A program made the position numbers and the translations under genes. This document shows, one piece after another, positions 20,679-26,067 of a stretch of DNA of 64,000 bases. Numbering within the stretch: the first letter of the stretch is position 1; each line of letters begins with the position of its first letter. The notes beneath the pieces were generated by a model that saw only the letters and a list, made by a program, of their open reading frames with translations, had not been told where the DNA came from and ran no database searches. The stretch lies in the NCBI GenBank assembly GCA_022701275.1, contig CP031740.1, positions 5,407,001 to 5,471,000 of the forward strand, given 5' to 3'. Origin of the DNA: Microcoleus vaginatus PCC 9802. GTDB taxonomy: Bacteria; Cyanobacteriota; Cyanobacteriia; Cyanobacteriales; Microcoleaceae.

Positions 20679-21113
20679 ATGAAAGAACTTGACGACAAAA
20701 AAACCCAGGAACTGCTATGCACCATCATGGAATGGGAACTAGCAGGTGTCGTGCGCTACACCCACTATTCACTAATGGTGACAGGGCCAAACCGGATTCC
20801 CATCGTGCAGTTTTTTAAAGCACAAGCAACGGAATCCTTACTCCACGCCCAACAAGCAGGAGAAATTCTCACCGGTTTAGAGGGGCATCCCAGTCAGAAA
20901 ATTGCTCCCATCGAAGAAACCTACAAACACTCGGTGAAAGACTTGTTGGAAGAAAGTTTAAATCACGAGAAAAAAGCGCTGAAAAAGTATAAATCTTTAC
21001 TTGAAGTCGTGGGCGGCTCCAGCGTTTATCTGGAAGAATATGCCCGCAATCTAATTGGGCAAGAAGAATTGCATCAAGTAGAACTGAAAAAAATGCTGCG
21101 TGATTATAGTTGA
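20679..21113 (+). CDS. Ferritin-like di-iron protein (bacterioferritin/Dps-like)
   Basis: The 144-residue protein is a single four-helix bundle. Helix-borne metal ligands can be seen as EWELAGVVRYTHY, ATESLLHAQQAGE, ESLNHEKKALKKY and GQEELHQVELKKM, the E...ExxH...E...ExxH pattern of ferritin-like proteins. It lacks the length and haem-ligating methionine context of classical bacterioferritin. A role in iron storage or oxidative protection fits its position just before the FTR1 permease on the same strand. The exact subfamily is uncertain. Confidence 0.85.
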   Translation: MKELDDKKTQELLCTIMEWELAGVVRYTHYSLMVTGPNRIPIVQFFKAQATESLLHAQQAGEILTGLEGHPSQKIAPIEETYKHSVKDLLEESLNHEKKALKKYKSLLEVVGGSSVYLEEYARNLIGQEELHQVELKKMLRDYS

Positions 21114-21224: not shown

Positions 21225-22187
21225 ATGAATTTTAGTGAAGCTGTACCGACTTTTGTAATTACCCTGCGCGAAGGCGTAGAAGCCGCCTTAGTCGTCGGAA
21301 TTGTACTAGCTTGCCTCAAAAAAGCCGAGCAAAGTCACCTCAATTCTTGGGTTTATGCAGGTGTCGCAGCCGGCATTGCTGCTAGCGGTTGTGTGGGTGT
21401 TCTATTCAATGGATTGCTGGCAGCACTATCAACATCAGAGCAGACTTACGCACCAGTAATTAAACAGCTATTAGAGGGCGTGTTGGGCATTGTGGCGATC
21501 GCAATGCTAAGCTGGATGCTAATTTGGATGACTCAGCAAGCGCGCTTTCTAAAAGCTGAAGTTGAAGGGGCCGTTACAGCAGCTTTGACAGAAAATACCA
21601 ATGCCGGCTGGGGCGTATTTGGCTTAATTTTTATCGCGGTACTGCGCGAAGGTTTTGAAACAGTTATATTTGTCAGCGCTCAGTTTCAACAAGGTTTGAG
21701 TCCCGCTTTGGGAGCTTTGGGCGGTTTGACTGGGGCGGCAATCATTGGCGCGCTACTGTTCAAGTGGGGTGTCAAAATTGATATCCGCCTGTTTTTCAAG
21801 TTTATGGGAATTTTGTTGCTGTTAATCGTGGCAGGTTTGGCAGTATCGGCGCTGAAACATTTCGATCAAGCTGCTGGGATTTTGTCGCAGATGAATAGCA
21901 AGTATGCAGCAATTTGTGTTTATTACGATCGCCTCGCACCAGTCCACTCTTGTATTTTAGGGCCTATGGTGTGGAATGCAGCGGCAATTTTGCCCGATCG
22001 ACAATTTCCAGGAGTGCTTCTCAAAGCACTGTTTGGATACAGAGATCGACTTTATCTCGTCCAAGCAGCGGCTTACACAATATTCTTAGCCACCATCGGC
22101 GGTCTTTATTTCCAAAAATTAGGATCTAAGGCGACTCTTCCCACCAAAAATACTCAGCCAGCTCGATCGCAAACTCGCCCTCAGTAG
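21225..22187 (+). CDS. FTR1-family high-affinity iron permease
   Basis: The 320-residue membrane protein has about seven helices. It carries the two REGxE iron-passage motifs of FTR1 proteins, TLREGVEAALV near residue 14 and VLREGFETVIF near residue 145. FTR1 permeases move ferric iron with help from an oxidase or periplasmic partners; none is obvious here. It lies 110 bases after the ferritin-like gene, so the pair may form an operon. The 110-base gap has only ATGCCCC-type repeat sequence. Confidence 0.92.
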   Translation: MNFSEAVPTFVITLREGVEAALVVGIVLACLKKAEQSHLNSWVYAGVAAGIAASGCVGVLFNGLLAALSTSEQTYAPVIKQLLEGVLGIVAIAMLSWMLIWMTQQARFLKAEVEGAVTAALTENTNAGWGVFGLIFIAVLREGFETVIFVSAQFQQGLSPALGALGGLTGAAIIGALLFKWGVKIDIRLFFKFMGILLLLIVAGLAVSALKHFDQAAGILSQMNSKYAAICVYYDRLAPVHSCILGPMVWNAAAILPDRQFPGVLLKALFGYRDRLYLVQAAAYTIFLATIGGLYFQKLGSKATLPTKNTQPARSQTRPQ

Positions 22188-22780: not shown

Positions 22781-23521
22781 ATGATGCCCCGGATACTTGT
22801 TATTGATGATGACGCGGCGATCGCCGAACTCGTAGCCGTCAACCTAGAAATGGCTGGCTATGAAGTCACCCAGGCAGAAGACGGCATCAAAGGTCAGGCA
22901 CTAGCCATACAACTGCTCCCCGACCTGATCATGCTAGACCTCATGCTGCCTAGAGTAGACGGATTCACCGTATGTCAGCGTTTGCGGCGTGACGAGCGTA
23001 CCTCAGACATTCCCGTCTTGATGTTGACAGCCTTAAGTCAAACTCAAGATAAAGTAGAAGGCTTCAACTCCGGCGCCGACGACTACCTGACCAAACCCTT
23101 TGAACTAGAAGAGATGCTAGCCCGAGTGCGAGCTCTACTAAGGCGCACAGACCGCATCCCCCAAGCTGCCAAACACTCCGAAATTCTGAATTACGGCCCG
23201 CTGACCCTTGTCCCCGAAAGGTTTGAAGCTGTTTGGTACGCTCAGACAGTCAAACTGACCCACCTAGAGTTTGAGTTGCTGCACTGCTTGCTTCAGCGCC
23301 ACGGTCAGACAGTTTCTCCCAGCGAAATTCTCAAAGAAGTGTGGGGTTACGACCCCGACGACGACATCGAAACTATTCGTGTACACATCAGACACCTGAG
23401 AACCAAGATGGAACCCGATCCCCGCCATCCTCGGTACATCAAAACCGTATACGGGGCCGGCTATTGCCTGGAGTTGCCCAACAACGAGCAAGTAGCTGAA
23501 GAAACCAAATCCTCTGCTTGA
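22781..23521 (+). CDS. rpaA: Response regulator RpaA (OmpR/PhoB family)
   Basis: The 246-residue protein has a receiver domain with the acidic pocket D9-D11, the phospho-acceptor D53 in [12 protein letters not shown] and the conserved lysine in LTKPFE. It is followed by a winged-helix DNA-binding domain (about 135-235; [40 protein letters not shown]). It closely matches RpaA, the circadian output regulator that controls dusk genes and phycobilisome-photosystem I energy transfer. It differs clearly from RpaB at the N-terminus. Its kinase partner is not in the window. Confidence 0.92.
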
Positions 23522-23564
23522 GCTAGCGCGCCAGATGCAACAAGCAGTTAAAAATCCCGCGAGA

Positions 23565-23594
23565 AAAGCCTGAGAACAAATGCTCTCAGGCTTT
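23565..23594 (+). terminator. Hairpin terminator of rpaA
   Basis: AAAGCCTGAGA (23565-23575) pairs perfectly with TCTCAGGCTTT (23584-23594) around an 8-base loop, followed by a T-rich GTTGTTTGG stretch. It is 44 bases after the rpaA stop, as expected for an intrinsic terminator. Confidence 0.8.
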
Positions 23595-24055
23595 GTTGTT
23601 TGGAGTTTGAGATGAATATGTCAACAAATAGGCATTAACTCTCTGGATTCGGAAAAAAACAATGGCGCACCCCCCTCTAACCGTACTTTTAGAGATGCTT
23701 GTCCATAGGAAAGTACCGGATTTCTTTTTCCCCCTTGTCTTTTCCGAGAAAATTGGATCGCTACTTAAACAATACTCTAGCCATAATACTCTTTAATAAT
23801 ATTATTTATCAATAAATTTAGAAGTATTCCTTTAGCTGCTATTTTTGCTAACGAGAGACCAAACTCTGCTCAAGCGCCAAAAACAGTCCTAATCGTGATA
23901 GAGCGATGTTTTTTCCTACTGATTTACATACCTGAACTCAAATCAGTGAAAATTTTTCTCAAATACCCCTTGACGAAACTACTAAAATTGTTGATTATCT
24001 ATATCAATAACCTGCAATCGCTTAAAACTCCCCTGACATCTTTCTCAAGAGGTAA
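23595..24055. other. Intergenic region with promoter of the CP43-like gene
   Basis: No gene is supported in these 460 bases. The right-hand end holds a Fur-like palindrome (23992-24006) 50 bases before the CP43-like ATG and a short AGAGGT ribosome site. The remainder is AT-rich without recognisable structure. Confidence 0.5.
23992..24006. promoter_or_regulatory. Fur-like palindrome in the promoter of the CP43-like gene
   Basis: TGATTATCTATATCA matches the Fur consensus TGATAATNATTATCA at 11 of 14 defined positions and keeps both TGAT and ATCA ends. Its centre is about 57 bases before the start codon, in promoter range. Iron-stress control is plausible by analogy with isiA but is inferred. 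Confidence 0.45.
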
Positions 24056-24568
24056 ATGGCCGTGACCAGCATGGCAAAAAAATCCTTCCCAGCCGAAGGA
24101 AAATCATTTTCCTGGTGGGTAGGCAACGCCCGCTTAATCAACCTTTCCGGCCGTTTGCTCGGTACCCACGTCGCCTACGCCGGCCTCATCGTCTTCTGGG
24201 CGGGAGCCTATACCCTATTAGAGCTTTCCCGCTTTAACCCAGAATTGCCCATGTACGAACAAGGCTTAATCCTGTTGCCAAACCTAGCCAGACTCGGCTT
24301 GGGCGGGGGTGCGGGAGCCAAAATTGTCGATACTGATCCGTACTTCGCCGTTACGGCGATTCACCTAATCAGCTCAGCCTTTCTAGGCTTCGGCGGCATC
24401 TTTCACTCTCTCAAAGGGCCAGCAACCCTCGAAGCAAGAACTTCTTTCTTTGGCTACACATGGGAAGACGCATACAAAATGACCACCCTCTTGGACATCC
24501 GCCTAGTTTTGCTGGGTGTCGCTACCTTCTTGTTGGGGGCCAAAGCTATGTATTTCGGTGGTTTATGA
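24056..24568 (+). CDS. Half-length CP43/Pcb-like chlorophyll-binding protein (three helices)
   Basis: The 170-residue protein matches the first half of CP43 (PsbC/IsiA/Pcb family). It has [17 protein letters not shown] before helix [18 protein letters not shown] in the first loop, [19 protein letters not shown] in helix II and [20 protein letters not shown] in helix III. It stops after KAMYFGGL, where normal proteins continue for three more helices. Histidines H38, H103 and H117 that match chlorophyll ligands are kept. The second helix-I ligand is Y41 and the helix-III ligand is R149. The gene has its own ribosome site (AGAGGT) and overlaps the next gene by ATGA. It may be a degraded antenna gene or a specialised small chlorophyll protein; the clean coupling favours function. 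Confidence 0.8.
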
Positions 24569-24879
24569 GTTTAGCTGACGGATATTTCCTAGTAGGAGCA
24601 GTTGCTGTGTTGATTCGGTTGCAGGAAAAAGGGTTGACACGGCTGACGGGTTTGCTGACGACGCTGGCATTGATTTGGATTGGGGCGATCGCCCTTTTTG
24701 TTGGCGATCGCCCCAATCTGGAAAAAGACAAGTCATTCTATTGGCATAAAACTCCCCAAGATGGGAGTTTATTCCCGAGTGGTTTTGTCATCGGTGACAC
24801 CTCTGCAGCTTTTCTCGGCTATTTGCTGCTAGAAAATATTTCTCCTATAGATGCCATTGTTCGAGGTTTTGTCAATTAA
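24565..24879 (+). CDS. Small membrane protein coupled to the CP43-like gene
   Basis: The 104-residue frame starts at ATG 24565 within the stop of the CP43-like gene (ATGA). It has about three hydrophobic segments: [13 protein letters not shown] (7-19), [20 protein letters not shown] (27-46) and [19 protein letters not shown] near 75-93. A charged loop, [15 protein letters not shown], separates the last two. I do not recognise a family. A longer frame opens at 24460, but that extension is only the shadow of the upstream gene. The coupling suggests it works with the half-CP43, for example as an assembly or membrane partner, which is inference. Confidence 0.65.
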
Positions 24880-25551
24880 CTACTCTGCTTGCGGTTGACA
24901 TCGGTCGATCGCAAGCCCGGAGAATTAGGAATTGCGAAACAGACTTTCATCCGCCGACTTGCTGAAAACCTTTCGTCGCTGTTACAGCGCAGTTACACAC
25001 AGAAAATCGATGGTGCAATTCCTATTTTTTACCTACAAACGCCGTTCTGATTTCGGTCAACCTTGAGACAATAACCGTATGACTGTCTTTTTCTAAAATT
25101 TATGTATCGCCACTTTGATTATTTTTGTGGAGTCGGTCCGTAACATTGCCAGAAGGAGCGCATCAAATCAAGCGCTTGTATCCCCTTCATTGTTATTGGG
25201 ATTTTTTTACGACGGACTACCGCCTCAAATTTACAGTGTGCCCGGGCGTTGCTTGTACTGAAGATGTAATCGGTTGCACTGACTTTGACCCTAAAACTTG
25301 TTTTACCAATGCTTATCAGCAACATTGCTAAAAACTTCACAAAAATTACGCATAAATACCGAAAACTACTTTTTTAGTTCCACTTTTAGCAAGGGGGATA
25401 GATGCCTAGCAGATTACCCTTAACTAAAGGGGAAGTCTAGAATTAGATGGATTATCACGGAAAATACACTTTAGGAGAATCTACAAAAGAGCGCGAATAA
25501 ATAACAGATAATCCCCTAGAGGCCTCGTTCAAGTTTTTTATTTTTGGCGAC
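24880..25551. other. Intergenic interval before the Fur-family gene
   Basis: I see no supported gene in these 670 bases. Short frames of 68-73 codons run on both strands around 25120-25340, overlapping each other. The plus-strand one is cysteine-rich toward its end, but it has no ribosome site or recognisable motif. Promoter elements for the Fur-family gene should be near 25440-25550. Confidence 0.45.
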
Positions 25552-26067
25552 ATGAATTTATACAGTGCTAACTCACTCAAAGTCGAACTCAACCAGAGAG
25601 GCTGCCGCCTGACTCCCCAGCGAGAAACTATTTTGAGTGTCTTTCAAAATCTGCCACAAGGCAATCATTTAAGTGCGGAAGAGTTATACAGAACTTTGCA
25701 GAATAAAGGAGAACGAATAGGCTTGTCTACTGTCTACCGAACCCTGCATTTATTAGCAAGAATTGGAATTTTGCGTGAACTAGAATTAGCAGAAGGGCAC
25801 AAACATTATGAACTGAATTTTCCGGAATTGCACCACCACCACCACCTGGTTTGCATTCAGTGTCACAAAACCTTTGAATTTAGCGATGAATCCATTTTAA
25901 GAATTGGCAAAAAGCAAGTTGAAAAAGCTGGGGTCGAACTGCTTGACTGTCAATTAACTGTGCGAGCTGTTTGTTTGGAAGCGCTGCGGGAGGGATGGCC
26001 TTCTTTGGTACCCAGCAATTGGTTGTGTCCCAGATATCATTCAGAAATTGATGAAAAAATTAGTTGA
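25552..26067 (+). CDS. Fur-family metalloregulator (PerR/FurA-like)
   Basis: The 171-residue protein has the Fur winged helix (about 1-90; QRGCRLTPQRETILSVFQNL, GLSTVYRTLHLLARIG) and the dimerisation/metal domain. It has a HHHHHLVCIQC stretch with one CxxC, and the family acidic and His ligands. The second CxxC pair of typical Fur proteins is absent: the end reads AVCLEALREGWPSLVPSNW. That ending is what I recall for cyanobacterial PerR-type proteins, so peroxide/iron sensing is more likely than zinc. It is the nearest regulator to the FTR1/ferritin/CP43-like genes, but whether it controls them is inferred. Confidence 0.88.
   Translation: MNLYSANSLKVELNQRGCRLTPQRETILSVFQNLPQGNHLSAEELYRTLQNKGERIGLSTVYRTLHLLARIGILRELELAEGHKHYELNFPELHHHHHLVCIQCHKTFEFSDESILRIGKKQVEKAGVELLDCQLTVRAVCLEALREGWPSLVPSNWLCPRYHSEIDEKIS

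Follow-up and report, generated by a model that had tools for sequence, protein, structure and literature searches.

A half-length CP43-like open reading frame in Microcoleus vaginatus PCC 9802 is very probably a deletion-made pseudogene chimera

The window analyzed here is a 64,000-nucleotide stretch of the Microcoleus vaginatus PCC 9802 genome (contig CP031740.1, positions 5,407,001–5,471,000). At 24056–24568, on the plus strand, it holds a 170-aa open reading frame (ORF) with a CP43-type match that stops after helix III. CP43, IsiA, and Pcb antenna proteins have six helices. The ORF matches the Pfam PSII family (PF00421) with 134.5 bits over profile positions 2–161 of 500, and the NCBIfam psbC model with 209 bits, below the model cut-off of 603, over positions 1–153 of 432. 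Only the first part of the family is therefore matched, and the ORF ends at residue 170, compared with 347–359 aa in full-length relatives. On these matches and its full-length orthologues in the genus, it was identified as a remnant, limited to helices I–III and ending at a deletion junction, of a CP43/IsiA-family antenna gene, here called gene 1. The best PDB match of similar length to full-length gene 1 is chain 9zjt_2 (342 aa), named "Photosystem II CP43 protein PsbC homolog."

An earlier note, made from the sequence alone, had described a CP43-like ORF with a clean start and a stop after helix III. The ORF and its stop are as described, and only the reading of the start needs revision. 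The ATG at 24056 is found in the window and in M. vaginatus HSN003 (G028); in the other four aligned truncated copies, it is ATC (n = 3) or lost (G013). The common reading of gene 1 copies begins at GTG 24062, which is probably the ancestral start, and ATG 24056 probably is not.

A second, 104-aa ORF (24565–24879, plus strand) opens in an ATGA that overlaps the stop of the half ORF. It matches Pfam PsaL with 44 bits over positions 49–148 of the 150-position family, and its PDB matches are PsaL chains and the fused chain 7y3f_1. Both window pieces match that chain, a 476-aa protein named PSI subunit XI, the half ORF at its residues 9–166 and the PsaL piece at 377–473. Anabaena IsiA2 is described as an IsiA with a C-terminal PsaL-like domain, and in the PSI-IsiA structure from Anabaena it takes the place of PsaL (PMC9938196). 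CP43-PsaL fusion proteins are described in Nodularia and Anabaena (PMC3610870). Names given to this type, chlorophyll-binding protein type V, are Anabaena IsiA2/All4002, Nodularia Nsp37500, and Leptolyngbya IsiA4 (PMC9938196, PMC3610870). Chain 7y3f_1 fits the description of Anabaena IsiA2, and we infer that 7y3f is the entry of PMC9938196. The 104-aa ORF was identified as a remnant of gene 2, the PsaL-domain end of a CP43-PsaL fusion of the IsiA2 type. Unlike the fusion, the window keeps the PsaL end only, in another frame than the gene 1 piece.

The flanks of the two pieces are conserved. The left neighbor, on the plus strand at 22781–23521, is a response regulator with a Trans_reg_C output domain (Pfam/NCBIfam, synteny), and the right neighbor, on the plus strand at 25552–26067, is a Fur-family regulator (Pfam, synteny). 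Both served as control genes. The retained upstream region of gene 1 (23522–24055, plus strand) aligns with four truncated loci and wholly or partly with full-length loci. Upstream of the response regulator, a ferritin-like protein (20679–21113) lies beside an FTR1/EfeU-type iron permease (21225–22187), an iron-related neighborhood. Upstream of fur, G028 (L035 8670–10046) and G013 (L040 6190–7568) have in common an extra segment of ~1.38 kb, bounded by the equivalents of window positions 25210 and 25215.

Relatives of the half protein at 77% identity or more were found in 18 of 29 genus genomes, the window's own included. Gene 1 is full-length in 14 of the 29 (open frames of 349–368 codons), the kind of close relative that, according to the earlier note, would mark the ORF as a decaying gene. 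Four genomes (the window's, G028, G003, and G014) hold gene 1 in an open frame of 169–170 codons, and two more (G013 and G026) have partial copies. Among the matches listed, the other nine have no such copy of gene 1; in G008, one of these nine, a 37-residue stretch at the end of a contig matches at 70%. Over the half, identity to full-length gene 1 is 80–85% for the 14 genus copies and 77–78% for two same-family copies.

Thirteen of the 14 full-length loci were read over a longer stretch. In 12 of these, gene 1 is followed by gene 2, a CP43-PsaL fusion of 491–535 codons whose end is 58–71% identical to the PsaL piece; in the thirteenth (L052), the contig ends inside gene 2. After gene 2, six of the 12 loci have two more IsiA-like genes, another has one before its contig ends, and the rest have none or a fragment. 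In 10 full-length loci, the cluster was found flanked by both the response regulator and fur; in L043 and L051, only the response regulator was found. An intact orthologue thus lies at the same place in relatives. Full-length gene 1 of Microcoleus and Tychonema sits between the response regulator and fur, as the window copy does, and is ~350 aa long with H149, whereas the window copy halts after helix III.

A family search over 61 genomes, including the 29, listed ten matches outside the genus, at 66–78% identity and all in open frames of 349–373 codons, and no stable half-CP43 among them. In a scan of 22 loci from named genomes, one stops at residue 170 (HSN003), the loci of Microcoleus FACHB-DQ6 (G013) and Microcoleus MP8IB2.171 (G026) are partial copies, a Hormoscilla locus ends at 229, and the remaining 18 extend for 333–361 residues from the match start. 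Lengths for L077, L078, L081, L082, and L085 were taken from the open-frame values of the family search. Homologues stopping after helix III, which the earlier note had proposed to look for, were confined to one clade of Microcoleus among the genus and family matches listed. A stable half-CP43 family across several genera was rejected, given 169–170-codon frames in 4 of 29 genus genomes and long frames in the outside matches listed. The titles and opening abstract lines listed, with most subscription literature outside the search, showed no paper on a half-size or pseudogene CP43/IsiA in Microcoleus.

The boundary between the two pieces was located with blastn. Compared with L051 (G005), the window aligns with gene 1 as far as 24564 (85% identity) and, from 24566, with gene 2 PsaL-domain DNA (82%). 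Bases 7083–9083 of L051 (2,001 bases) are absent from the window, with one base in their place. The deletion junction was placed at 24563–24568 (plus strand) from blastn alignments to five full-length loci, L051 among them, and from comparison of the junction letters with genes 1 and 2; L035, L036, L037, and L040 have the same junction. After the residues GGL, the window sequence switches to the PsaL domain of gene 2. The frames of gene 1 and gene 2 differ at the join; gene 1 runs directly into a TGA, and the PsaL frame can be read only by starting at a new ATG. The half ORF has its TGA because the join is out of frame, and it ends "exactly where helix III ends" because the junction falls there.

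The junction letters TTTATGAGTTTA are identical in the window, G028, G003, G014, and G013. A tree of 22 gene 1 sequences sets these five junction carriers and G026 apart from the 16 full-length sequences with an ultrafast bootstrap of 93, slightly below the usual 95. The G026 copy is cut earlier and is shorter, with no visible junction. A common junction and a single clade mean that one deletion accounts for the truncated copies. The alignments and tree thus indicate that the truncation is one inherited deletion, found only in one clade of one genus. In the window, the interval from the PsaL piece to fur showed no trace of either the third or the fourth IsiA-like gene.

Other loci in the genus also lack an intact cluster. 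In L088 (G027) and L090 (G018), the response regulator adjoins fur, with no antenna gene matched between them; the G018 fur match covers residues 48–167 only. L089 (G004:C342) carries, at 142–720 and upstream of fur, a chimera that joins parts of the third and the fourth IsiA-like gene, spans more than one frame, and has a different make-up from the window remnant. These three loci indicate that antenna loss at this locus is recurrent in the genus.

The window's genome has four family matches: CP47 and CP43 (both above NCBIfam equivalog cut-offs), the half-ORF remnant, and a psbC fragment. No full-length family member other than psbB and psbC was found in it, and it has one normal psaL. With its matches accounted for as psbB, psbC, a remnant, and a fragment, the genome appears to have no working isiA. 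The psbC fragment (~2212794–2213062; L091 5295–5563) is 269 bp long and 90% identical to part of psbC; it sits ~3.5 kb downstream of the matching psbC part, and the PSII-family match there has two stops. This fragment, matched at ~2212776, was considered as an IsiA remnant and rejected, being a 269-bp, 90% identical partial copy of psbC.

Residues 38, 103, 117, and 149, histidines in full-length proteins, and position 41 are what we take to be chlorophyll-ligand positions of helices I–III. The half ORF carries H38, Y41, H103, H117, and R149, at the positions the earlier note gave. Of the conserved histidines it thus keeps three, with H149 changed to R and Y at position 41. H38, H103, H117, and H149 are invariant in all 16 full-length relatives, in which position 41 is H (7) or Q (9); Y41 occurs in the window only. 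Position 149 is R in the window, G028, and G003, S in G013, and H in G014, so that H149 is lost in four of the five truncated copies covering it. H103 and H117 are kept in all five truncated copies covering them, and H38 in four of five (R in G026). This spread of residues over full-length and truncated copies implies that R149 and Y41 arose after truncation. The altered ligands of the earlier note are therefore present but represent later drift; H149 persists in truncated G014, and position 41 already varies between H and Q in full-length proteins.

Further changes have accumulated in the truncated copies. In each of the four near-complete ones, 16–21 changes fall within the 126 columns at which the 16 full-length proteins do not vary. 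In-frame losses remove 255 bp of the half in G013 and 3 bp in G003. No stop or frameshift was found in the half ORF of the window, G028, G003, or G014. The PsaL piece has a nonsense codon in G003, and a common 230-bp loss in G028 and G013 (window positions 24815–25044) removes its end. It is thus broken in three of the five junction carriers and open to the end in the window and G014. Disabling lesions beyond the junction are therefore found in the PsaL piece of G003, G028, and G013 and in the half of G013 and G026.

Selection was estimated with our own GY94-type branch-model code (F3x4), not PAML, on a tree from the half gene itself. Fits used 20 sequences with the four near-complete truncated copies (window, G028, G003, and G014) as foreground. 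G013 (L040) and G026 (L041) were kept in the 22-sequence tree and omitted from the fits because about half their codons are missing. In the two-ratio model of the half gene, dN/dS is 0.086 in the background and 0.71 in truncated branches (lnL −3013.9 vs −3047.6 for one ratio). Fixing truncated branches at 1 gives lnL −3014.8, a non-significant cost of 0.94 lnL units; likelihood-ratio statistics are 67.4 against one ratio and 1.9 against neutrality. Without the stem branch, the truncated dN/dS is 0.82 (approximate 95% profile range 0.5–1.4), and the background across fits is 0.086–0.088. The dN/dS of the half ORF in the truncated clade is not distinguishable from neutral.

Pairwise dN/dS, run on 10 of the 22 sequences, is 0.42–1.27 among the four truncated copies (6 pairs), with the low values in window–G028 (0.44) and G028–G003 (0.42), compared with 0.10–0.14 among four full-length copies (6 pairs). 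For the PsaL remnant (16 sequences), dN/dS is 1.07 vs 0.153 (lnL −2134.08; one ratio −2157.57; neutral −2134.11). The flanking control genes, fitted on 14 genomes with 240 of 246 response regulator codons, have an unaltered dN/dS on these branches (fur, 0.098 vs 0.096; response regulator, 0.027 vs 0.033). Purifying selection was thus lost after the lesion in the half gene but not in its neighbors. The dN/dS check suggested in the earlier note accordingly gave a rise from 0.086 to 0.71–0.82. Of the outcome it had named for decay, a strain-unique ORF under relaxed selection, the relaxed selection was found, and the ORF belongs to one clade of one genus and is not unique to the strain.

Some results point the other way. 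All four near-complete copies keep the half ORF open, an outcome for which neutral simulation (1,500 runs per setting, stops only and no frameshifts, from residue 7 of L049, over the clade crown without the stem) gave a probability of 0.085 or 0.082 under two base-composition settings, with a mean of 1.7 of 4 open. Divergence from G014 is 0.104 in the half, 0.167 in the near upstream region, 0.172 in the PsaL piece, 0.197 in the downstream spacer, and 0.107 far upstream; from G003, the same regions give 0.061, 0.093, 0.067, 0.103, and 0.073. Against G028, the half is at 0.047 and the near upstream region at 0.044, and against G013, the half (0.039) exceeds the near upstream region (0.024); for these two genomes, the global alignment was unreliable 3′ of the PsaL piece (~0.4 difference) and was replaced there by a separate alignment. 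Open frames and lower divergence of the half leave room for weak or recently lost constraint. The dN/dS values and PsaL lesions argue against a maintained antenna pair.

The reading we hold as very probable is that the half ORF is a deletion-made pseudogene chimera, a product of ordinary gene decay and not a new antenna. Relatives carry, between the response regulator and fur, gene 1 (CP43-like, ~350 aa), gene 2 (CP43-PsaL, 491–535 aa), and, in some, further IsiA-like genes. The alignments show that a deletion of ~2 kb in an ancestor of the window's clade joined these two iron-stress chlorophyll-protein genes out of frame, with gene 1 cut after helix III and gene 2 reduced to its PsaL domain; the stop and the ATGA overlap are by-products of the junction. 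The selection estimates show that both pieces have since drifted under little or no selection at the protein level, and different strains have lost a conserved histidine, in-frame pieces, or PsaL tails. Low-level transcription of the remnant is possible, and we infer that no working antenna is made.

The earlier note had offered both a reduced chlorophyll protein and a domain in decay. Decay is supported by the full-length relatives, the deletion junction, and the relaxed selection. A reduced three-helix chlorophyll protein, perhaps produced by translational coupling with the PsaL-like piece and bound to photosystem I at the PsaL/IsiA2 site, is very unlikely. The ATGA overlap, the two ORFs open in the window and G014, the half ORF open in four copies (neutral chance ~0.08), the lower divergence of the half than of its near flanks against G014, and IsiA2 taking the place of PsaL in the Anabaena structure (PMC9938196) would suit it, but it does not accord with near-neutral dN/dS in both pieces, the changes at invariant columns, the PsaL piece broken in three of five junction carriers, or H149 lost in four of five. 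The downstream ORF that the note considered as a partner is real, although its PsaL identity was missed, and a maintained pair is contradicted by the PsaL dN/dS and lesions. We regard as highly improbable that the deletion made a bicistron whose three-helix CP43-like protein and free PsaL-like protein are co-translated and, in some Microcoleus strains, continue to bind photosystem I as a minimal antenna pair under weak constraint.

It is also unlikely, if less remote, that the truncated protein, although non-functional now, still worked for some time following the deletion, or that weak selection against harmful products maintains the open frame. The open frame and a dN/dS point estimate below 1 are compatible with this, but 1 lies within the range, and the deletion removed half the antenna at once. 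An assembly error or a misread intact gene can be given almost no credence, as the junction is common to five genomes, including the complete chromosome of HSN003 and the window's own single contig.

Reading the ORF as a deletion-made pseudogene chimera eliminates one false half-CP43 antenna candidate and illustrates how misleading a clean stop at the end of a helix can be. It also shows that a clade of Microcoleus has lost the antenna-gene cluster at this locus.
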